The notes beneath the pieces were generated by a model. It searched no databases. It was not told the origin of the DNA and was given only the letters and a program-made list of their open reading frames with translations. Source: Cystobacter fuscus (GTDB lineage: Bacteria; Myxococcota; Myxococcia; Myxococcales; Myxococcaceae). Taken from it: DNA of 64,000 nt. Below, in pieces: positions 10,996-36,194 of the stretch. The position numbers and the translations under genes are program-made. The DNA is taken from NCBI RefSeq assembly GCF_002305875.1, contig NZ_CP022098.1, positions 806,001 to 870,000 on the forward strand, given 5' to 3'. The stretch's first letter is position 1. Each line of letters begins with the position of its first letter.

Positions 10996-11442
10996 ATGAA
11001 AGACATTCGGCTCATGGTGGTGCTCGCGTGTGTGGGTGTATCGGGCGTGGCGCAGGCCCAGCTCGCCCTCCGTTGCACTTCGGATGACCGGCTGACGACG
11101 TTGGCGCAGAAGAAGGGCCGCAACGCCTGGGCGCGCAAGTGCGGCTACATCAGCACGACCCGGGAGGCCAATCTCAACAGCTTCAGCGAGTACCAGGTGT
11201 TCGCCAACGGCTGCTTCACCCAGCCGTGCGCGCCGACGGCCAACAACTGTGTGTACTTCGTTCCCGCCTCGGAGTACGCGCCCTGCATCGGGGGACTGAC
11301 ACCGGTCGGCTCGTGCGATGCCCGCCTGGAGGGTGCGCCATCCGATACCATGCTCGCGGACATTGCCTCTCCGGCCACGCGCTACCTCTGGGCCGCCGCG
11401 CCGAGCCTGGACACCCTGCTCGGCGCGCGTCCCACTTCCTGA
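10996..11442 (+). CDS. secreted GRNAW(A/S)RKCG-family protein, Hint-less
   Basis: A 148-residue secreted protein: signal peptide (MKDIRLMVVLACVGVSGVAQAQ), then a domain of about 85 residues with the family signature GRNAWARKCGYI, EANLNSFSEYQVF and ordered cysteines. It is a paralogue of the gene at 11448–11921 and of the N-terminal halves of the two Hint proteins at 14685 and 15637. Similarity stops at VGSC, the residue pair just before the Hint domain in the longer relatives; a different 40-residue tail (ending LGARPTS) follows. GAGGGA lies upstream of the ATG. The conserved domain has an unknown role; even cysteines suggest a disulfide-stabilised extracellular fold. Confidence 0.75.
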   Translation: MKDIRLMVVLACVGVSGVAQAQLALRCTSDDRLTTLAQKKGRNAWARKCGYISTTREANLNSFSEYQVFANGCFTQPCAPTANNCVYFVPASEYAPCIGGLTPVGSCDARLEGAPSDTMLADIASPATRYLWAAAPSLDTLLGARPTS

Positions 11443-11447
11443 GCGTG

Positions 11448-11921
11448 CTACAGCTCCCGGACGTTGGCCTCCTCACGCACGAGGAGGCGGCGGTGGAGGT
11501 AGGCCCACAGGGCCTGGGGGAGGGAGTCCGCGGTGAGTTCTCCGTGCTGCTCCTCGAGGTTCTCCCCCGGGGCCGCCGGCGCGAAGGCATTCACGCAGAC
11601 GCCAATCTTGGTGAGTTGATCGAGCGGGACACAGGCCGCTGACTCCGAGATCGGCACGTGGACGTAGCAGCTCGAGCCCGGTGCGACGTTCGGGTACGCG
11701 TAGCAGCCCTGGAAGAAGACCAGGTACTCGCCTTCCGCGTTGTAGTACGCCTCCTTCGCGGGGGTGATGAAGCCGCACTTGCGTGCCCAGGCATTGCGCC
11801 CGAGCCTCACGGTCTCATTCAAGAGGACATCATCCACCCGACAGCGCTCGTAGATCTGCGCCATCGCGGTGGAGGACATGCCCACGAGGGTGAGCAGGAC
11901 GGCGGAAAACAATGCCTTCAT
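11448..11921 (-). CDS. secreted GRNAW(A/S)RKCG-family protein, Hint-less but with Hint-protein tail
   Basis: A 157-residue protein with a signal peptide (MKALFSAVLLTLVGMSSTAMAQ) and the family domain (GRNAWARKCGFI, EAYYNAEGEYLVF, paired cysteines). Alignment with the two long paralogues holds to Gly-x-Cys-Val. There the Hint proteins continue TGCLTP, whereas this one reads NAFAPA, losing the nucleophilic cysteine and the whole Hint domain. After a linker of about 25 residues it ends LWAYLHRRLLVREEANVREL, clearly related to the final 20 residues of the Hint proteins (EWADIHYRLATREEADVQGL). It therefore looks like a Hint-excised version with both flanks retained. AGGAAG precedes the ATG. Convergent with the preceding paralogue, 5 bp apart. 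Confidence 0.75.
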   Translation of the reverse strand: MKALFSAVLLTLVGMSSTAMAQIYERCRVDDVLLNETVRLGRNAWARKCGFITPAKEAYYNAEGEYLVFFQGCYAYPNVAPGSSCYVHVPISESAACVPLDQLTKIGVCVNAFAPAAPGENLEEQHGELTADSLPQALWAYLHRRLLVREEANVREL

Positions 11922-12044
11922 GGTGACTTCCTTTCTTTTGATCCGGCTTTACTGAGATTTCCATTATAAAGGATTTTTCTGTCCTGGTTTATTTTTCCAG
12001 CCATTCTGAGGTACAGAATATCCACCACATTGCAGGAGGTACGC

Positions 12045-12770
12045 ATGAAGGCGTGGCTCGCGGTGACACCGGCCCGGAATTCTCATTCACGCTCCCCATT
12101 CAAGAAGGTGTCGGTCTCGGGCGGGCTCGTGCTCGCGTTGACGGGCCTGCTCCTGGGGGGATGTGGTCCCAACCTGCCAGGAGAGGCTTTGGAGCCGGAG
12201 GGCCTGGCGCGCTCCCGCGACGCGCTGGTGGAGATGTGCCCCGCCATTCCGCTCGCGGCGGATGAGCAGAACCTGCTGCCGTCGTACTGCTACTACTGCG
12301 GTGACGGCCTGTGCTACGGGGAGACCCAGAACAGCTGCCCGGAGGACTGCGGCTACCCCTCGTACTGTGGAGATGGGGTGTGCAGCCCCGCGGCCGGCGA
12401 GAGCGATTTGAACTGCGCCTCGGACTGTTACTGCGGCGACAACCTCTGCAATGGCAGCGAGACCGTCAACACGTGCCCGCGCGATTGTGGCTGCCCCAAT
12501 CAGTGTGGCAACGGGGTATGCAACAACAACGAGTCGACGGTGACGTGCTGGACGGATTGCGGCACCCGGTGCGGTGACGGGGTGTGCAACGGTGGGGAGA
12601 ACGGGAGCAACTGCGCCCAGGACTGCAGCTATTGCGGCGATGGCATCTGCCGCTCCCCGGAGACGCGCTACAACTGCCCGGATGACTGCGGCGGCGTCTA
12701 TTGCCTGTCGGGCCGTGAGGTGAACGGCATGTTGCCCATGTGCCCGTTGGAGCCGGTACCGGCACAGTAG
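12045..12770 (+). CDS. lipoprotein with six CGDGxC cysteine repeats
   Basis: A 241-residue lipoprotein. ATG 12045 follows AGGAGG at good spacing. A basic N-terminus and hydrophobic stretch end in LLLGGC, a lipobox. From about residue 88 there are six tandem modules of 18–22 residues with the pattern CG(D/N)xxC…E…CxxDC (for example YCGDGLCYGETQNSCPEDC and RCGDGVCNGGENGSNCAQDC). The acidic residues plus cysteines in each repeat resemble small metal-binding or disulfide EGF-like modules seen on many myxobacterial surface proteins. Probably outer-membrane anchored; ligand unknown. A strong hairpin follows the stop. Confidence 0.8.
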   Translation: MKAWLAVTPARNSHSRSPFKKVSVSGGLVLALTGLLLGGCGPNLPGEALEPEGLARSRDALVEMCPAIPLAADEQNLLPSYCYYCGDGLCYGETQNSCPEDCGYPSYCGDGVCSPAAGESDLNCASDCYCGDNLCNGSETVNTCPRDCGCPNQCGNGVCNNNESTVTCWTDCGTRCGDGVCNGGENGSNCAQDCSYCGDGICRSPETRYNCPDDCGGVYCLSGREVNGMLPMCPLEPVPAQ

Positions 12771-12781
12771 TGGGCCGGGCC

Positions 12782-12809
12782 CCGGCCCCGGCGTTCGCGC
12801 CGGGGCCGG
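12782..12809. terminator. GC-rich hairpin with TTCG loop
   Basis: A perfect 12-bp stem (ccggccccggcg / cgccggggccgg) closed by a TTCG tetraloop sits between two convergent genes, 12 bp from each. There is no T-tract. The same stem core recurs at 15593–15620. Confidence 0.65.
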
Positions 12810-12821
12810 TCCTTGGGAGGA

Positions 12822-14582
12822 CTACAGCCTCCAGCGGATGGGCTCGGGCTCCGCAACGAGGCCCATGAGCTTGCTGTTGACGAACTTGTTGTAGGGGTCC
12901 ACCACGAAGCCCGAGGGCTCCCAGCCGTCACCGATGGCCACCTCCACCGACACCTCCTTGTTCTGTCCCGTGAGCTCGAACTTCGCCAGTCCGATCCTCT
13001 TGTCGGTGCGGTCGTGGAACGACACCTCGACCTCCACGTAGCCGGGGTAGTAGATGTCGGATTGCTGCAGCACCTTGAAGGTCAGCTTGCCATTGGTGCG
13101 CTTCCAGCCGTTGTCCACGTAATAGGGCCAGTTCGGCTCGCCGCTCCGCTTCACCCAGGCGTTGAAGTAGGGCGTGAGGTCCTTTCCCGACGCGTTCTGC
13201 ATGGCCACGCGCAGATCGTCGATGCTCCGGGCCGCGGACGCGGACAGGAAGCTCTTGATGCCGGCGAGCACCTTGTCCTTGCCAATCAGCGGCTCCAGTT
13301 GCAGGAAGAGGATCATCGGCCCCGAGCCGTACGTGCTGTTGACGAAGGTGATGTAGTTGGGGGCGGGGTTGTCTTGCGGCTGCAGGTAGTAGGTCGCCGA
13401 CCGGGCCAGGCGGTCCCAGTACGCGCGCGTCTGCCCGGCCTCGCCACCGCGGTATTGCTCCTCATAGAGGTACGTCATGTAATCGGCCAGGGCTTCCTTC
13501 CAGGCGAAGTCCCACTTGCTGGACAGCGTGGTCCGGTTGCCCGCCCACTGATGCACCACCTCGTGCATGAGCGTGTGCATGGTCATGTTGGCGTAGTCCT
13601 TGCGCAACAGGGGCAGATCGTCGCGAAGGATGATGTTGGCCGGGTGCTCCATGCCCAACCACTCCGTGGGCCCGCTCGCGATCCGCAGCTCCGAGCCGTA
13701 GGGCAGTGCACCCAACTGCTCGGTGATCCACCCGAGGAAGTGCGAGACGTCGTTCCGGTTGAGCGCGGGGATGAGCCGGCCGTTGGGGACCTCATAGAAC
13801 TTCACGTTCACGGGTGAGGTCAGGAACTGGGTTTCCACCCAGTTCGGGTTGGAGGCGACGGCGAAGGACGAGTAGGTGGGGGCTTTGGTATTCGCCGGCA
13901 GGTCGCACCGGGTCTGACGGTTGCTCGGCGTGGTGCGCACTCCGGGACAGAGCACGAGCTGATTCTCCGGGTGATCCACGGTGAAGGAGACGCGCGTGAG
14001 TTGATCCGCGGCGTCGTCGCACGGCCCGAACAGGTCGCACGACTCCACCCATCCCAGCAGGTACGTGAACTGGCCTCCCGAGAAGTCCTGGCGCCTGGAG
14101 AAGCCGACCTGGCTGTAGTCGTACGTCGCCTCGGGGACGGTGTAGGTGCTCTTGATGATCGACGGCCCCCGGGTGCCGTCCACATCCGAAGTGGAGCAGA
14201 TGTTCAAGTGCTCATTGGACCAGTTGAAGCCCTGCAGCACGGAGGTGCCACCCCATTGCCAGGAGACGTTCTGGACGCTGGCGGGCCCGGGAATGCTGAG
14301 GCAGTCGATGGTCTCACTCGGTTGGACCACGAGTTCCGAGCTGGCCTGCCGGCTCGTGAGATCGATGCCATATTTATATTGGAGGACGTTGTACTGGCGA
14401 TCGCCGATGATGTCCTGTCCTTGGACGCTGGGCTCGCAGGTCGTGTTGGAACACCCATCTCCAGGAGTGGGCTCCGTGTCTGGAGCTCCGCAACCCGAGC
14501 CCAGCACGCCGCCGAGGAAGAGAACGGTGGAAAGACGTCCCCGTGCGCGGGGCTTGTAATCAGTGCTGGCAACGACCCTCAT
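12822..14582 (-). CDS. M1-like metallopeptidase lipoprotein (copy 1)
   Basis: A 586-residue lipoprotein: signal ending LGGVLGSGC, then a beta-rich N-terminal region, and a catalytic domain with GMEHPANIIL (the GxMEN-like exopeptidase motif), HEVVHQWAGN near residue 337 and KEALADYM 18 residues later, giving the full HExxH-x18-E zinc site of gluzincin M1 peptidases. The C-terminal 90 residues are beta-rich as in aminopeptidase domain III. It should be displayed on the envelope and degrade extracellular peptides. ATG 14582 is preferred over an upstream in-frame ATG because it is preceded by AGGA and the signal peptide. A close paralogue lies at 19251–21056. Confidence 0.88.
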   Translation of the reverse strand: MRVVASTDYKPRARGRLSTVLFLGGVLGSGCGAPDTEPTPGDGCSNTTCEPSVQGQDIIGDRQYNVLQYKYGIDLTSRQASSELVVQPSETIDCLSIPGPASVQNVSWQWGGTSVLQGFNWSNEHLNICSTSDVDGTRGPSIIKSTYTVPEATYDYSQVGFSRRQDFSGGQFTYLLGWVESCDLFGPCDDAADQLTRVSFTVDHPENQLVLCPGVRTTPSNRQTRCDLPANTKAPTYSSFAVASNPNWVETQFLTSPVNVKFYEVPNGRLIPALNRNDVSHFLGWITEQLGALPYGSELRIASGPTEWLGMEHPANIILRDDLPLLRKDYANMTMHTLMHEVVHQWAGNRTTLSSKWDFAWKEALADYMTYLYEEQYRGGEAGQTRAYWDRLARSATYYLQPQDNPAPNYITFVNSTYGSGPMILFLQLEPLIGKDKVLAGIKSFLSASAARSIDDLRVAMQNASGKDLTPYFNAWVKRSGEPNWPYYVDNGWKRTNGKLTFKVLQQSDIYYPGYVEVEVSFHDRTDKRIGLAKFELTGQNKEVSVEVAIGDGWEPSGFVVDPYNKFVNSKLMGLVAEPEPIRWRL

Positions 14583-14629
14583 GGGTGAGTCCTTTTGAGA
14601 TGGGGCAAGGTTCAGGGACTTCAAAACAG

Positions 14630-14664
14630 CCCACCCGCCCGGGAAGGCGCACCGGGCGGGTGGG
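14630..14664 (-). terminator. intrinsic terminator after Hint protein 1
   Basis: A 13-bp stem (cccacccgcccgg / ccgggcgggtggg) with a 9-base loop is followed on the minus strand by CTGTTTTG. It lies 20 bp beyond the stop of the Hint gene at 14685. Confidence 0.7.
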
Positions 14665-14684
14665 GGAATGGAACAGGGATGGGA

Positions 14685-15527
14685 CTAGAGGCCCTGGACG
14701 TCGGCTTCCTCGCGGGTGGCGAGGCGGTAGTGGATGTCGGCCCACTCGTTCTGGAAGCGCACGGAGCCGGTGAGCAGGCCTTCCACGTCGAAGATGTTCT
14801 CGGCCTTGTCGTGGCTGGAGGGCTGGACGTTCCAGACGTAGCCCTTGAAGCGGAAGACGTTGATGTCGGAGATGGCGACCTTCTGGCCATCGGAGGCGAG
14901 GAGGAACTCACCGGGCTTGAGGGACTTGGCCTTCACGACATTGCCCTCGCCGTCGACCATGGGGTGCTCGGAGGTGACCTCGAGGGTGACGCCATTGGCG
15001 AGGTGGAGGGAGAAGACATCCTCGATGGTGTCGCCGGCGATATAGGCCCGGATGGGCTGCTCGGAGAAGGTGGGGGCGAGCAGCGTGGCCGCGGGGGTGA
15101 GGGCGGTGACGGTGGGCGCACCGGACTCGAGGGCCTCGGGGATGGGCATGTGCTTGCCGCCGAAGGACACCTTCTGGGTGGGGGTGAGGCAGCCGGTGAC
15201 GCAGGTGCCCAGCTTGCTGATCTCATTCAGGCCAATGCAGGCGGCATTGGCGTCGGCGGGGATGAACCTGGCGCAGGAGGAGCCGGCGATGACGCTGGGG
15301 TAGGCGTAGCAGCCCTCGAGGAAGACCTGATACTCGCCCTCGGAGTTGAGATAGGCCTCCTTGGCCGCGGAGATGAAGCCGCACTTGCGTGCCCAGGCGT
15401 TGCGGCCCTGGGCGAGGGTGGCGTTGGTGAGCTGGTCGTCCAGGGTGCAGCGGGTGGCGAGCTGGGCCATCGCGGGAGAGGAGATGCCCACGAAGGCGAA
15501 CACAGCGACGAACATCGATGCTCTCAT
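14685..15527 (-). CDS. secreted GRNAW(A/S)RKCG-family protein with Hint domain (1)
   Basis: A 280-residue protein. Signal peptide at residues 1–22, family domain at 23–108 (GRNAWARKCGFI, EAYLNSEGEYQVF, four or more cysteines), then a Hint autoprocessing domain from Cys113 (GCLTPTQKVSF) to about Asn260. The Hint block-B motif is TSEHPM (Thr185, His188), followed by VVKAKSLKPGEFLL and GYVWNVQP. A final tail of 20 residues (ending REEADVQGL) is shared with paralogues. Hint domains cleave or splice through an N–S acyl shift at the first Cys; the C-terminal junction here lacks the usual His-Asn pair (Gln-Asn-Glu), so cleavage rather than splicing is more likely. AAGGAGAT precedes the ATG. Confidence 0.8.
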   Translation of the reverse strand: MRASMFVAVFAFVGISSPAMAQLATRCTLDDQLTNATLAQGRNAWARKCGFISAAKEAYLNSEGEYQVFLEGCYAYPSVIAGSSCARFIPADANAACIGLNEISKLGTCVTGCLTPTQKVSFGGKHMPIPEALESGAPTVTALTPAATLLAPTFSEQPIRAYIAGDTIEDVFSLHLANGVTLEVTSEHPMVDGEGNVVKAKSLKPGEFLLASDGQKVAISDINVFRFKGYVWNVQPSSHDKAENIFDVEGLLTGSVRFQNEWADIHYRLATREEADVQGL

Positions 15528-15592
15528 CTTGTATCTCCTTTGTTACGAATTACTCGATTTACTGTTTTATGTTTTTTGAGACGGGGAAGGTG

Positions 15593-15620
15593 CCGGCCCC
15601 GGCGGCGAGGCCGGGGCCGG
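15593..15620 (-). terminator. GC hairpin after Hint protein 2
   Basis: An 11-bp perfect stem (ccggccccggc / gccggggccgg) with a 6-base loop, 16 bp beyond the stop of the gene at 15637. The stem matches that of the hairpin at 12782. It also lies upstream of the 14685 gene, insulating the two. Confidence 0.6.
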
Positions 15621-15636
15621 TGGACGGGGCGGTGGA

Positions 15637-16473
15637 CTACAGGCCGCCGACCTCGAACTCGTCACGCAGGGACAGACGGTAGTCGTCCGCCGCCCACTCG
15701 TTCTGGAAGCGCACCGAGCCGGTGAGGAAGCCCTCGGCGCTCATGACGTTCTCCGCCTTGTCGGTGCTCTGCGGACGCACGTTCCAGACCTGGCCCTTGA
15801 AGTTGAACACGGTCACGTTGGAGAGGGTGAGCGCCTTGCCATCCGCGCCCATCAGCGTGTCGCCCACCTTCAGGGTCCGCGCCTTCACCATGGTGCCATC
15901 GTTCAGGAGCATGGGGTGCTCGGCGGTGACCTCGAGGCTGCGCCCCTCGCGGGTCTTGAGCAGGAAGATGTCCTCCTGCGTGTCACCCGCGACGTAGGCG
16001 CGGATGGTCTGGTTGGCGAAGGACAGCAGGCCCGGCTGCGCCGCGGGCGTGAGGGCCGTCACTTCCTTCATGCCGTTGGCGTAGGCCTCCGGCACGGGCA
16101 GCTGGCGGCCCGCGAAGTCCACGCGCTGCGAGGGGGTGAAGCAGCCGGTCACGCAGCTGCCCAGCTTGACGAGGCCGGCGATGCACGCCGCGGCCTCGTT
16201 GTCGGGCACGTACTGGGCACACGTGGAGCCGGGCTGCACCGTGGGGTAGCTGGCGCAGGCGTTGGTGTAGACCTGATACTCGTTCTCCGAGTTGAGGTAC
16301 GCCTCGCGCGAAGCGGAGATGTAGCCGCACTTGCGCGACCAGGCATTGCGGCCCTGCGCCGAGGTGGTGGTGGTGAGCTGGTCATCCAGCGAGCAGCGGG
16401 CGCTGAGCTGGGCCACGGCGGAGGTCGAAACGCCCGTGACGACGAGCATGAGCGCGGGAATGATGTTCTTCAT
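15637..16473 (-). CDS. secreted GRNAW(A/S)RKCG-family protein with Hint domain (2)
   Basis: A 278-residue paralogue of the gene at 14685: signal peptide (residues 1–22), family domain (GRNAWSRKCGYI, EAYLNSENEYQVY), Hint domain from Cys111 (GCFTPSQRVDF) with block-B motif TAEHPM (Thr183, His186), MVKARTLKVGDTL and GQVWNVRP. It ends with the shared tail EWAADDYRLSLRDEFEVGGL. Conservation of the nucleophilic Cys and the TxxH motif in both copies implies the Hint activity is selected. The product is presumably exported and then processed outside the cytoplasm. It lies between the other Hint gene and an M4 protease gene, each with its own short promoter gap. Confidence 0.8.
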   Translation of the reverse strand: MKNIIPALMLVVTGVSTSAVAQLSARCSLDDQLTTTTSAQGRNAWSRKCGYISASREAYLNSENEYQVYTNACASYPTVQPGSTCAQYVPDNEAAACIAGLVKLGSCVTGCFTPSQRVDFAGRQLPVPEAYANGMKEVTALTPAAQPGLLSFANQTIRAYVAGDTQEDIFLLKTREGRSLEVTAEHPMLLNDGTMVKARTLKVGDTLMGADGKALTLSNVTVFNFKGQVWNVRPQSTDKAENVMSAEGFLTGSVRFQNEWAADDYRLSLRDEFEVGGL

Positions 16474-16530: not shown

Positions 16531-18099
16531 CTACTGCACGCCCACGGCGCTCCAGGCATCGCGCACGGCCTGCACCACCGTGGCGTCGTAGCGGTCCTGC
16601 GCCGCCTGGACGGTCCAGGCGCGCGCCTGGGACATGGTGGTGGTGGAGGTGAAGTAGTTGGCGTTCGCGTGGTACCAGGTCTGCGCCGCGCGGTTCATGC
16701 CCACGCCGGTCACGTTGACGCCCGTCTTGCCGCGCGGGTGCGTGCCACCGGTGACCAGCAGCTTGAACACCAGGTTGGGGATGCCGGAGTTCCAGTGCAC
16801 GCCCCCGTTGTCGGAGGTGCCCGTGTAGCGCTCGGGGTAGTAATCCTTCGACGAGCCGTCCTGCGTGGGGTTGTTCATGTAGCGCAGCGCGTCCCCGCCG
16901 ATGCCCGGCGTCCAGATGTACTCGCCGATCTTCCAGATGTCCGCGTCGACGGCGCCCCCGCGCGACCAGCTCGAGCAGAAGGCCGCGGCGACGTCCGACA
17001 GGCTCTCGTTGAGCGCGCCCGACTCGTTGCGGTAGGCGAGCCCCGACTCGTACTGCGTCACGGCGTGGGTGAACTCGTGCGCGACCACGTCCAGGTCCCG
17101 GCCCAGCTCGCCCGAGTTGGCGTTGTCGCCGTCCCCGAAGGTGATCTGCACGCCATCCCAGTACGCGTTGACGTAGGCCTGGCCGTAGTGGACGGTGCTC
17201 TGGATGCGCCCGCCGCGGTCGTCGAACGAGTCACGCCCGAACAGGGTGTCGTAGCAGTTGTAGGTCGTCCCGATGAGGTTGTAGTTGGTGTCGACGTGGT
17301 TGTCGCCCGTGGCGCCGCCGCCCTCGCTGCGGCGCAGCGTGCCCGGCGTGCTCCAATCGTTGTTGGCCGAGTAGAGGGCCCGGTTGATGGAGTGCAGCTG
17401 CGGGCGCACGTCGAGCACCTCGCCGGACAGGGCGCTCACATAGACCAGGTCGCGCGCGGGCTCGCCCTCGCGCGTTCCCACCACCGTCACCTCATAGGCC
17501 GGGGACAGCTCGCCCTGGGCGCTCAGGAAGTAGACCGGGCCGGGCGTGCCCTGCGCCGTGAGGCCCGTCTCCGAGCCCACGGCGGCCCGGGCGGCGGCCT
17601 CGAGGGACACCCGCTTGAGGGTCGTCGGCTCGCTGGCGCCGCGCGCGTTGCCATTGGCCGCGAACACCTCTCCCGCCTTGTTGACGTGGAGGAGGAGCTC
17701 TCCGCCCACCACGCGCAGGCCGTTGCGCGTCTGGTCATAGCGCACGTGGGTGAAACCGAGGTCATCCGTGCGCACCGACCGGAGGCTCAGCTCCTTCGTG
17801 CTCAGGCGGAACGCCGGGGCGACCCGGTCGAGCACGGGCCGCAGCGCCTGGTGGGCGAGCTCACCCGAGACGCGCAGCCCCGGGGCGGTGAAGGAGGTGT
17901 CCACCTTGCCGAAGCTGCCGCGGATGAAGGTGGGCACGTTGCCCGGACCCATGTCCACCAGCTCCACCTTGCCCAGCGCGCTCAGGGCCGCCTGCACGTC
18001 GTCGCCCGCCTGCTGCTGCGTCTCCGGGGCGTCCCCACACGCCGCGCCGAAAGCCACACAGCAAGCTCCGATGAGTCCCTGCTTCCAATTCTGGATCAC
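16531..18099 (-). CDS. M4 (thermolysin-like) metallopeptidase
   Basis: A 522-residue secreted zinc protease. The start is GTG 18099, preceded by AAGGAGA at good spacing. A signal segment ending AFGAACGD contains a possible lipobox. Residues about 60–220 form the FTP/PepSY-type propeptide (GLRVVGGELLLHVNKAGEV and YEVTVVG). The mature catalytic domain has HEFTHAVTQ near residue 338, NESLSD (third zinc ligand Glu) and GGVHWNSGIPN with the catalytic-site His. This is the full M4 set of the thermolysin/pseudolysin type, an extracellular endopeptidase fitting a predatory or proteolytic lifestyle. Confidence 0.92.
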   Translation of the reverse strand: MIQNWKQGLIGACCVAFGAACGDAPETQQQAGDDVQAALSALGKVELVDMGPGNVPTFIRGSFGKVDTSFTAPGLRVSGELAHQALRPVLDRVAPAFRLSTKELSLRSVRTDDLGFTHVRYDQTRNGLRVVGGELLLHVNKAGEVFAANGNARGASEPTTLKRVSLEAAARAAVGSETGLTAQGTPGPVYFLSAQGELSPAYEVTVVGTREGEPARDLVYVSALSGEVLDVRPQLHSINRALYSANNDWSTPGTLRRSEGGGATGDNHVDTNYNLIGTTYNCYDTLFGRDSFDDRGGRIQSTVHYGQAYVNAYWDGVQITFGDGDNANSGELGRDLDVVAHEFTHAVTQYESGLAYRNESGALNESLSDVAAAFCSSWSRGGAVDADIWKIGEYIWTPGIGGDALRYMNNPTQDGSSKDYYPERYTGTSDNGGVHWNSGIPNLVFKLLVTGGTHPRGKTGVNVTGVGMNRAAQTWYHANANYFTSTTTMSQARAWTVQAAQDRYDATVVQAVRDAWSAVGVQ

Positions 18100-18159
18100 T
18101 GACTTCTCCTTGCGTCGAGAGGTACAACGTTGCCTTGCCGCCACGACGAACTCGTGAAA

Positions 18160-18201
18160 CGGGCGCACCCGTGCCGTTCCGGCCCGACCGGTGTGCGCCC
18201 G
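18160..18201 (-). terminator. hairpin terminator
   Basis: Arms cgggcgcaccc and ggtgtgcgcccg flank a GC-rich loop; on the minus strand the hairpin is followed by GTTTC. It lies downstream of the gene at 18325 and just upstream of the M4 protease start, separating the two. Confidence 0.5.
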
Positions 18202-18324: not shown

Positions 18325-19197
18325 TCAGAGGTGCCGCGTCAGCCGCTTCACCTCGTCCATGCTCGCGCCCGACTCGGACAGTCCCGCGAGGAGGGCCTCG
18401 CGCAGGAGGCTCTTCAACTTCGGGTTGTCGAGCTGGGCGTAGGAGTCCACCGCGAGCTGCCGATCCAACTGGGCCAGCCGGAAGAGCAGATCGAACTTCT
18501 CCCCCACCAGCCCCTTCTTCGCGGTGTCGGACAGCGAGCTGTCCACCGGCTCCATCAACAACGCCACCATGGTATCGCGCGCGCTGGGATCCTTGGGGGC
18601 CAGCGAGTGGAGCATGTCGATCATCGACATGCGCTCGAGCACCGCCTCTGGCTTTCCATGCATGAAGGAGGTGCCCGCGGGCAGCTCGGACAGGGACGTG
18701 GGGTCCGTCAGCTCCTCCTTCAGCGCGGCGAGCTGCGCCGGGCCGCCCTGCGCGAACTCCTCCAGGAACTTCTCCTCGCGGAAGAAGGCATTGAAGCGCC
18801 CGTGGCGGAACTTGTTCGCCGCCTGGCGCACCTCCTCGCGGCGCTGGGCCATCGTCGGCTCCTGCCCCGCTGCCACCTCCGCCGTCGGGGACGGAGCGGC
18901 CGGTGGGAGGACGGTGGTTCCCGGGGAGGAGGCGCTCGCCGCGGAGGTGGCCGGCGAGGCTGGGGTAGAGCGGGCTCCCGCGGCCGTGCCCCTGGCGGCG
19001 TTCGTGGCCCGTGCGCCGGGGGTGGACGGCGTGCCGGACTCTCCGGCGGCCGGAAGCTCTCCGGACGTCGGAGCCGACCGGGTGAAGAGGGCATAGGAGC
19101 CCGCGCCCGCGAGGACGAGGATCGCGAGGCCCGGACCGCCCCAGCGGCTCCAGCGCAAGCGTGGCGTGGCGTTCTGGTTGTCGTGTCGTGCGTTCAC
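18325..19197 (-). CDS. single-pass membrane protein with helical C-terminal domain, unknown
   Basis: A 290-residue protein starting at GTG 19197, which follows AAGGAG at good spacing; longer reading only overlaps the preceding gene. One membrane helix (about residues 20–40, GPGLAILVLAGAGSYALF) is followed by a Pro/Ala/Ser/Thr linker of about 75 residues and an all-helical C-terminal domain of about 160 residues (REEVRQAANKFRHGRFNAFF to DEVKRLTRHL). The layout suggests a periplasmic helical domain tethered to the inner membrane by a flexible stalk. It lies 53 bp after an M1-like peptidase gene and before the M4 peptidase gene. No family is recognised. Confidence 0.75.
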   Translation of the reverse strand: MNARHDNQNATPRLRWSRWGGPGLAILVLAGAGSYALFTRSAPTSGELPAAGESGTPSTPGARATNAARGTAAGARSTPASPATSAASASSPGTTVLPPAAPSPTAEVAAGQEPTMAQRREEVRQAANKFRHGRFNAFFREEKFLEEFAQGGPAQLAALKEELTDPTSLSELPAGTSFMHGKPEAVLERMSMIDMLHSLAPKDPSARDTMVALLMEPVDSSLSDTAKKGLVGEKFDLLFRLAQLDRQLAVDSYAQLDNPKLKSLLREALLAGLSESGASMDEVKRLTRHL

Positions 19198-19250
19198 CTG
19201 GACAACTCCTTCTTCAATGGCTCGAGCGCGGGGAGGGAGTCGCGTGGAAG

Positions 19251-21056
19251 TCAGAAGTGCCAACGGGGCGGCGCGGCCTCTTTGATCGCGCCGAAGAACC
19301 TGCGATTGACCACCCGGTTCTCGGGATCCACCGTCACCTGGATCACGGGCTCGGGGAAGGGCTCCGGGGGGGTGACGAGCGTGGCGCTGGTGGGCGCGAG
19401 CCCGTAGTCGACGAGGATGTCCCGGGTCTGCGTGGCGCCCTGGACCCGCACCTTCACCTTCACCGGGTAGATGCCTCCCTCGTAGGTCTGCTGGGTGACG
19501 GCGAGGGTGAGATGTCCCGTTTCTTCATCCAGCGTCGGTTCCACGTCGAAGTAGGGCCAGTCCGGCTCGTTGCTGCCGTGGATCCACGCGTCGAAATAGG
19601 AGTCCAGCGAGCCCGGTGCCAGGTGGGCGCCCTGCTCCAGGGATTCGTGCAGGTGCTGGGTGGTGCGCGCGCCGGGCACCGCGAGGAAGTGCTGGATGCC
19701 GCGCAGGACGTCCTCCTGGCCCCCGGGCAGCAGCTCCTCGAGTTGCAGGAAGAGGAGCATCGGCCCGGTGCCATACACGTCCGCGGCGAACGTCAGGAAG
19801 GGGGCGGGACGGTCCTCCGGCCGCGGATAGAACATGGCCGAGCGGGCCATCCGGTCCCAGTAGGCGCGCGTCTTGGCGGCGTCCTGGGGCCAGTGCCGCG
19901 CCTCATAGACATAGGCCAGGTACTCGGCGATGGCCTCCTTCCAGGCGAAGTCATAGGCCTCCGCCATGGTCGTGCGGTTGCCCGCCCACTGGTGGGCGAT
20001 CTCGTGCATCAGCGTGTGCCGGGTCTGGTCGGCGTACTCGCTGCGCAGCACGGGCAGCTCCTCGGACAGGATGATGTTGCCCGGGTGCTCCATTCCGAGG
20101 AACTCCGTGGGGGCTCCCGCGACACGCAGGGTGTCTCCGTACGGCAGCGGGCCCAGCAGTCCGGTGATCCACTCCAGGTAGTCCGCGAAGACGGCCGACT
20201 GGAGCGCGGGGGCCAGCAAGCCCCCGGGCCCCTCGAAGAACTCGAGCCGGTAGGGGCCGGCTTCCGCGAACGTCGTACGCACCCAGGAGGGATTGGAGGC
20301 GATGGCGAAGGAGGAATAGGTGGGGGCCTGCTGCAGGTAGCTCCCGCAGCGCGTCTGGGTGTCACTGACGTTCAGCCGCGTGCCCGGGCACAGGACGACG
20401 TCGGCGGCGTCGTGCTCCACCTCGTAGCTGAAGGTCGCGAGCTGGCCGGGGGCGTCGTCACACAGCCCCAGCCGGTCACACTGCTCGACCCAGCTCATGA
20501 GGTACGAAGCGAGCTGGCCCTTGCGGTCCCTCCGCTGGGAGAAGCCCACCTGCGTATAGTCATACGTCGCCACCGGGACGCTGATGTCCGCCTCGATGAC
20601 GAGCGGTTGATTCGGGAGCGAGGGGCCGCAGATGCGCCAGGCGCCGGTGAGCTCCTCGACGCGGGTGGCGGCGGCCCCATTCCACTTCACCTGGGTGATG
20701 CCTGGCGGACCCTTCAGGACGGTGCAGTCACCGCCCGTGGCGGGCACCTTCAAGTACAGGCGCGAGTGGGCCGGGTGCGGCGTGTTGCCCGTGGGCCGCA
20801 GGTCGAAGCCATAGTGGTAATGGAGCACCCGCGCGGCGAAGTCGACGGAGGAGGGCGGCGGGGGCTCGGTGCTCCCCGGCTCCGTGGGCGGGGGCTCGCC
20901 GGGCGGCTCGGGAGGGGTCGTCTGGGGCTGCTCGTTCCCATGCTGAATCGTCCCGGGCTCGGTGACGGACGGGGCGGGCTCCTCGCAGCCACCCAGGAAC
21001 CCCGTGGTCCCCAACACCAAACCCACCAGACAGACAGATGCCTTTCCCTGACGCAT
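19251..21056 (-). CDS. M1-like metallopeptidase lipoprotein (copy 2)
   Basis: A 601-residue paralogue of the gene at 12822–14582. Signal peptide ending GFLGGC (lipobox), a Pro/Glu/Thr-rich linker, then the same beta-rich N-terminal region (YDYTQVGFSQRRDRKG against YDYSQVGFSRRQDFSG in copy 1). The catalytic motifs are GMEHPGNIIL, HEIAHQWAGN near residue 351 and KEAIAEYL 18 residues on, so the zinc site is complete. The C-terminal beta domain ends VNRRFFGAIKEAAPPRW, close to VNSKLMGLVAEPEPIRW in copy 1. ATG 21056 is used because the lipoprotein signal begins there. Two family members within 5 kb bracket the Hint and M4 genes. Confidence 0.88.
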   Translation of the reverse strand: MRQGKASVCLVGLVLGTTGFLGGCEEPAPSVTEPGTIQHGNEQPQTTPPEPPGEPPPTEPGSTEPPPPSSVDFAARVLHYHYGFDLRPTGNTPHPAHSRLYLKVPATGGDCTVLKGPPGITQVKWNGAAATRVEELTGAWRICGPSLPNQPLVIEADISVPVATYDYTQVGFSQRRDRKGQLASYLMSWVEQCDRLGLCDDAPGQLATFSYEVEHDAADVVLCPGTRLNVSDTQTRCGSYLQQAPTYSSFAIASNPSWVRTTFAEAGPYRLEFFEGPGGLLAPALQSAVFADYLEWITGLLGPLPYGDTLRVAGAPTEFLGMEHPGNIILSEELPVLRSEYADQTRHTLMHEIAHQWAGNRTTMAEAYDFAWKEAIAEYLAYVYEARHWPQDAAKTRAYWDRMARSAMFYPRPEDRPAPFLTFAADVYGTGPMLLFLQLEELLPGGQEDVLRGIQHFLAVPGARTTQHLHESLEQGAHLAPGSLDSYFDAWIHGSNEPDWPYFDVEPTLDEETGHLTLAVTQQTYEGGIYPVKVKVRVQGATQTRDILVDYGLAPTSATLVTPPEPFPEPVIQVTVDPENRVVNRRFFGAIKEAAPPRWHF

Positions 21057-21529
21057 GGCCTCGCTGCACCCTCGCGCGAATCGCATCGATGGTGCCCTTC
21101 AAGAAAGACAAAACGCAGTGGCGAGCCCACCCGGTGGGCCCTCCAAGAGACGATGCTCTCACCCGCTGTTCAGGACCTGGTCATGAAAGGTTACCGCCAC
21201 CGCCAGCTCCCCCCCTCATGAGCCATGTCCTACCCGGGTTGAAAACTTGAAAGCCGGGTTAAATGTGTTCTCTCTTCTACACCATTAGAATTGTAAATCA
21301 AGACTCTCCGGGCTTTTTTCTTACTTTCCAGTGGAGTTGAATTCCCAGCCCTGCTTCCCGGGCGGCGGGCTGTGGACTGGGAAGCAACACTTCGCGCGCG
21401 AGCAGGCGTCAGCTGGATGAGAGGGCTTTCGCCACGGAAGGACTCACGCGGCGGCGCAGCCTCGTGCTCGAGGCCGCCGCGCCCCCTCCCAGCATGGACG
21501 GGGCGCGGCGAGCCGGGTGAAGCGGGGAC
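21057..21529. other. intergenic stretch, 473 bp
   Basis: Contains the upstream region of the M1-like gene and the downstream region of the next gene. The interval 21235–21345 is markedly AT-rich for this genome (aaaacttgaaagccgggttaa; attgtaaatcaagactc) and probably holds the promoter of the M1-like gene. No gene, RNA or repeat was recognised. Confidence 0.4.

Positions 21530-34487: not shown

Positions 34488-36194
<1,707 letters not shown>

Follow-up and report, generated by a model that had tools for sequence, protein, structure and literature searches.

Our findings concern four paralogous genes for secreted proteins in a 64,000-nucleotide stretch of Cystobacter fuscus DNA (contig NZ_CP022098.1, positions 806,001 to 870,000; hereafter the window, whose own numbering is used throughout), two of which, H1 (14685-15527, minus strand, 280 aa) and H2 (15637-16473, minus strand, 278 aa), end in a Hint domain, and two of which, S1 (10996-11442, plus strand, 148 aa) and S2 (11448-11921, minus strand, 157 aa), do not. 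We consider it probable that the Hint domain of the secreted H1 and H2 precursors cleaves itself away and frees the N-terminal domain (N-domain), with no splicing, and that a putative membrane-anchored partner, N, together with a secreted protease, belongs to the same process. An earlier reading made from the letters alone (the sequence-only reading) had proposed a signal peptide and a GRNAW(A/S)RKCG domain as common to the four genes; the open reading frames are real, all four do have both features, and six cysteines are shared as well. The alignment starts with the signal peptide and extends as far as the last of these cysteines, and the S1, S2 and H2 products are 43-55% identical to that of H1. 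In H2 the signal peptide covers residues 1-21, the N-domain 22-110, the Hint domain 111-253 and a short tail 254-278. The extra C-terminal domain of about 145 residues, with its GC(L/F)TP and TxEHPM motifs, is confined to H1 and H2, and the contrast between domain-plus and domain-minus genes within one locus is thus borne out.

The Hint domain of H1 runs from Cys113 to Ser255 (14763-15191, minus strand; block B T185-x-x-H188) and that of H2 from Cys111 to Ser253 (15715-16143, minus strand; block B T183-x-x-H186). Pfam places it near PT-HINT and the intein splicing domains, all below their cut-offs, with PT-HINT as the best match (E 2e-6 to 5e-4; 8.8e-6 and 5e-4 for the two long window products). 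An AlphaFold2 model of mature H2, in which residue 90 is precursor Cys111 and residue 232 is Ser253, predicts the Hint part with confidence (block-mean predicted local distance difference test, pLDDT, about 77-96). Structural alignment with VIA matches this model to inteins, to the bacterial intein-like (BIL) domain 2lwy and to hedgehog 1at0, with Z scores of 17-18 over 131-137 residues at a root-mean-square deviation of about 2 A (Z 17.2 for 1at0), and structure prediction therefore did not return the missing Hint fold that was to have counted against the sequence-only reading. Cys111 superposes on intein residue 1 and on hedgehog Cys258, and Ser253 on the final residue of inteins, the place of their last Asn. 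Judged by model and sequence, the H1/H2 family has the fold of the HINT superfamily together with its nucleophile and block-B residues.

Which reactions such a domain could perform is indicated by the residues it has kept. Hint genes of this family occur in 63 of 195 Myxococcota genomes and 38 of 192 Bdellovibrionota genomes, and the fetched loci of these two phyla gave 113 distinct Hint sequences. Cys1, the first Hint residue, and the block-B His are present in 113/113 and the block-B Thr in 112/113, even though Hint sequences are only about 30% identical between the phyla. The residue before Cys1 (position -1) is Gly in 69, Ser in 34 and Ala in 10. At the other end the Hint domain closes with the dipeptide GS (100), GD (7), GT (5) or GA (1), the C-terminal His-Asn of splicing domains occurs in 0/113, and residue +1 in H1 and H2 is Val; a Gln four residues past the Hint end is invariant. 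Since the residues for cutting and joining on the C side are absent, a family Hint domain is, by these counts, able to form the N-side thioester and unable to cyclise Asn or to splice. Seven further sequences from a lipoprotein subfamily carry the same residue signature. The Hint domains of this subfamily (six loci) read CKCGCFE...NHGM...GVLVGDLAWQ and stand in tandem genes in one genome; weak Hint matches that might have been taken for pseudogenes proved to be of this kind, their in-frame stops being the normal stops after the subfamily's tail.

The predicted cut site is matched by the natural ends of Hint-less relatives, which we found by searching the Myxococcaceae genomes with the N-domain and then reading the cases without Hint. 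In 12 such stand-alone relatives the stop codon falls 2-4 residues after Cys(-4), the conserved cysteine four residues before the position of Cys1. Six of these proteins end exactly at residue -1 (CITG, CIMG, CESN, CEPS, CEPV and CESA, each followed by the stop), five end one residue later (CESIY twice, CESVY, CSAIY and CEASP) and one ends a residue earlier (CVP); the gene ending in CIMG sits between two Hint genes, and the Hint tail is kept in 0/12. At seven further loci repeats that we call PPC-like by resemblance only replace the Hint domain directly at the same boundary, and PPC-like domains are often removable C-terminal domains of secreted enzymes. From these ends and swaps we therefore take the N-domain to be a unit whose end coincides with the predicted cut site, with Hint as a C-terminal add-on, and the stand-alone relatives look like encoded pre-cut forms. 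The distribution of cysteines is in keeping with this division, as 100 of 107 distinct N-domains contain an even number (only two in 19 of them) and the Hint domain plus tail has no cysteine other than Cys1 in 105 of 107. Disulfides can thus close within the N-domain and leave Cys1 as a single free thiol; by this count Cys1 is likely not part of a structural disulfide.

S2 had been read as the empty counterpart of an intein-containing allele, with Hint gone at exactly the nucleophile and a 20-residue tail, like a C-extein, left in place. The tail is indeed kept, but the match between S2 and the C-terminal end of H1 is longer, with 38 ungapped residues (11451-11564, minus strand) scoring 69 against a best of 42 in 2000 shuffles, and it begins at ENIFDVEGLLTGS, the final 13 residues of the Hint domain, before running through the 25-residue tail. 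Nor is the loss exact at the nucleophile: on the left ten residues (VNAFAPAAPG) follow the conserved Cys, and on the right the deletion stops short of the Hint end. Because an empty allele would resume after the domain and the homology here begins within it, the S2 tail is, on this alignment, a deletion scar and not a C-extein. The gene is also missing from the nearest relative, with about 150 bp there against about 570 bp here. More generally, the tail is conserved jointly with Hint and is absent from every stand-alone form except S2; the variable short tail of S1 shows no homology to the Hint tail beyond chance in a shuffle test (p 0.18-0.6). A tree of N-domains, which rests on few columns and is uncertain in detail, places S2 next to the H1 group, paired with a second protein that lacks Hint, and sets the S1 proteins apart as a separate, conserved Hint-less clade, both groups being nested within Hint-bearing proteins. 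Distant relatives, those in Bdellovibrionota included, have Hint, which makes loss the simpler direction, and the Hint-bearing state looks ancestral in this tree, with Hint-less forms derived at least twice.

The gene for N (18325-19263, minus strand) encodes one N-terminal hydrophobic, membrane-spanning segment, an Ala/Pro-rich linker and a helical domain, as judged from sequence and model, and profile-profile comparison (E 3.6e-7, probability 93%) identifies it as the N of this locus. A search with the N profile found the gene in 39 of 96 Myxococcaceae genomes, exactly the 39 with strong Hint matches, and 52/52 of its copies there lie on the same strand as a Hint gene and within 2.8 kb of it. 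In Bdellovibrionota N was found in 14 genomes, each of them one of the 38 Hint-positive ones, and of its 17 copies 14 follow a Hint gene on the same strand at a distance of no more than 2.5 kb. The chance figures for this co-occurrence, 1e-27 and 1e-11, overstate the case because the profile derives from neighbours of Hint genes and related genomes were counted as independent; they have no bearing on the finding that the search of Myxococcaceae genomes turned up no N copy apart from a Hint gene. We regard N as a putative dedicated partner of the Hint proteins. It has no Pfam or PDB-sequence match, and a fold search with its poor model also returned none. The lipase-specific foldase (Lif) likewise combines a transmembrane anchor, an Ala/Pro-rich linker and a helical periplasmic domain, and its gene lies directly downstream of that of its secreted client; N resembles it in architecture only, with no Pfam lipase-chaperone match and no fold match from the poor model. 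In Bacteriovoracaceae a gene for a 758-aa lipoprotein-like protein without a Pfam match (L120:5491-7767) lies between Hint gene and N, and the Hint-N gap of several Bdellovibrionota genomes could fit a similar gene.

A secreted protease usually accompanies the Hint-N pair. In the window this is a thermolysin-like M4 metalloprotease with an FTP propeptide (16531-18168, minus strand; Pfam Peptidase_M4_C, E=1.9e-49) next to H2, and the conserved cluster further includes M1b, a secreted M1-type peptidase (19251-21086, minus strand) recognized by BLAST synteny. Fifteen relatives of the window type share the block Hint - M1 - N - M4 - Hint, mostly along with S1 and a cysteine-rich, lipoprotein-like gene (12048-12770, plus strand) that adjoins S1 in most of them. 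In other Myxococcaceae N usually comes after the Hint gene, and genes for an S8 subtilase, a beta-propeller (SBBP) protein or both come after N; the M4 protease was accordingly rejected as a universal partner, M4 and M1 being found in the window type and S8 in most others. Some variation surrounds this plan. H1 adjoins H2 in the source genome and its nearest relative, which have an extra M1 peptidase gene, and lies on the far side of a single M1 gene in other genomes; in the window the extra copy is M1a (12822-14624, minus strand; Pfam Peptidase_M1, E=7.1e-12), a paralogue of M1b that adjoins H1. At three other loci S1 is fused in frame to the cysteine-rich gene that is separate here.

In the mechanism we favor, the H1 or H2 precursor would be exported by Sec and would then form disulfides in its N-domain. 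The Hint domain would activate the peptide bond before the free cysteine, Gly110-Cys111 in H2 and Gly112-Cys113 in H1, and an N-to-S acyl shift aided by the block-B Thr and His would convert it to a thioester. Water as the default acceptor, or another nucleophile, would break this thioester and yield two products, an N-domain whose last residues are ...CVTG and a fragment made up of Hint and tail, the former being the product that S1, S2 and many relatives would make directly without Hint. In the simplest case N would serve at the inner membrane as a chaperone or tether, holding or folding the precursor during export, and the secreted M4 or M1 protease (S8 elsewhere) would act in the same process. 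The sequence-only reading, which had remarked that a protein cutting or splicing itself outside the cytoplasm would be unusual, is in this respect upheld for self-cutting, the likely predicted activity, and not for splicing. We acknowledge that several points weigh against this interpretation. S1 proteins extend 25-45 residues beyond the conserved cysteine, which means that the exact end of the N-domain is not strict, and the stand-alone ends could mark a mere domain boundary at which Hint was fused. The counts of N-Hint co-occurrence treat related genomes as independent, the model of N is poor (pLDDT 67) and matches no known fold, and its putative role as a partner rests on genome context.

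The alternatives differ mainly in what becomes of Cys1 and of the tail. Protein splicing, with Hint as an intein-like insertion, the tail as C-extein and the Hint-less genes as empty alleles, draws on the alignment of the S2 and H1 tails, and we judge it extremely improbable: that homology begins inside Hint, no relative has the His-Asn and H1 and H2 have Val at +1, the Hint-less forms are nested among Hint-bearing ones, and the 12 stand-alone proteins stop at the Hint boundary without a tail, so that the host is not continuous once the insert is removed. The loss of C-terminal catalytic residues and the Pfam scores under cut-off could instead mean that Hint has lost all catalytic activity and serves as a structural or binding domain. 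This is quite unlikely in our view, as Cys1 and His are fully kept, and Thr nearly so, over two phyla at about 30% identity. We give as little credence to a redox trap, in which a Cys(-4)-Cys1 disulfide would lock the domain until it met a reducing environment; Cys(-4) is conserved as strictly as Cys1, and the known structure 3nzm is an intein with its N-extein in such a trap, but Cys(-4) is kept in Hint-less proteins, where Cys1 is absent, and is for that reason unlikely to trap it, and the cysteine parity pairs Cys(-4) within the N-domain.

A transfer reaction of the Hog type is a special case of the self-cleavage proposed above, in which a specific small molecule, lipid or surface group bound by the tail would attack the thioester and the C-terminal Gly of the N-domain would become covalently attached to it, in parallel to the attachment of hedgehog onto cholesterol, for whose activation hedgehog uses an Asp/His. 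As in hedgehog, Cys1, Thr and His are kept without a C-terminal Asn, hedgehog 1at0 matches at Z 17.2, and the 25-residue tail with its invariant Gln, co-conserved with Hint, occupies the position of the hedgehog sterol-recognition region; among the distant family members this Hint is found on lipoproteins. A bound acceptor would explain why the tail is conserved. There is no sign of an acceptor, however, the tail is short and modeled with low confidence (pLDDT about 33), and the Hint-less forms have a free C-terminus, so the modification cannot be essential in all. We therefore hold transfer to be possible but doubtful, and self-cleavage of a secreted precursor, with water as the default acceptor, remains the reading we prefer.

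Other occurrences of Hint domains were noted as well. A contig profile scan with a Hint alignment recovered 14 named loci, and M. xanthus AM003 has three members. The Bdellovibrionota members include proteins of 918-950 aa in genomes of 3.8-4.0 Mb, and five small genomes of 1.3-1.8 Mb from a single family in the phylum of the source genome, Myxococcota, are also Hint-positive. A plasmid search gave a single match, a family member at 35033-35623 of AP029178.1, which is a 48 kb plasmid from Bdellovibrio sp. HAGR004. The source genome itself contains two PT-HINT-type Hint domains elsewhere, at 4569499-4569885 (G000:C1, within a 1565-aa frame) and 5591138-5591437 (within a 649-aa frame).

From predatory bacteria, Dori-Bachash et al. 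(2009, Funct Integr Genomics 9:153) reportedly described C-type BILs with a PPS-1 domain. The present family likewise joins one N-terminal module to one Hint type in Myxococcota and Bdellovibrionota, phyla of predatory bacteria, and by description only it probably represents these C-type BILs. That paper is cited in PMC9185962 and PMC2797640; our literature search, which did not cover it, found no account of C-type BIL activity. By description, the window family also matches a group outlined by Burglin (2008; PMC2362128), bacterial proteins that are secreted, have a divergent Hint at the C-terminus and conserve two cysteines ahead of it, here the Cys of the RC motif and Cys(-4). The portion of that article devoted to the group lists members from Myxococcus (MXAN_6253), Stigmatella (STIAU_1829) and the gammaproteobacteria (Reinekea, Photorhabdus, Serratia and Yersinia), shares with our family the signal peptide and the myxobacterial members, and mentions neither a partner gene nor forms without Hint nor a logic of cleavage. 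A-type BILs, bacterial and of the same fold, are defined by a conserved C-terminal His-Asn (PMC7765530) that is absent here, and BILs are described as inserts in variable protein regions, whereas the Hint domain here sits at the C-terminus. The best Pfam match is the PT-HINT of polymorphic toxins, yet no toxin domain follows Hint in this family, only the roughly 25 residues of the tail. The hedgehog Hog domain shares the fold, Cys1/Thr/His, the lack of a C-terminal Asn, a secreted N-terminal domain and a region after Hint, which here is a tail of about 25 residues and not a sterol-recognition region. We found no description in the literature of N, of the protease cluster, of the stand-alone genes for pre-cut forms or of the cysteine parity, and N and the pre-cut gene versions appear to be new.

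To our knowledge, the processing of proteins by Hint domains outside the cytoplasm is well understood only for hedgehog. The family reported here represents a clear and testable case in laboratory strains of M. xanthus and Bdellovibrio, with a predicted cut site, naturally pre-cut homologues that serve as controls, and a partner gene that, in the search of Myxococcaceae genomes, always had a Hint gene nearby. We think it unlikely, though worth stating, that it is a bacterial counterpart of hedgehog processing, a system of predatory bacteria in two phyla in which the tail would choose a cell-surface or prey acceptor to take the N-domain, with N and a secreted protease taking part; any link to predation is conjectural. 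If an acceptor and not water takes the thioester, these proteins would represent a bacterial relative of hedgehog lipidation.

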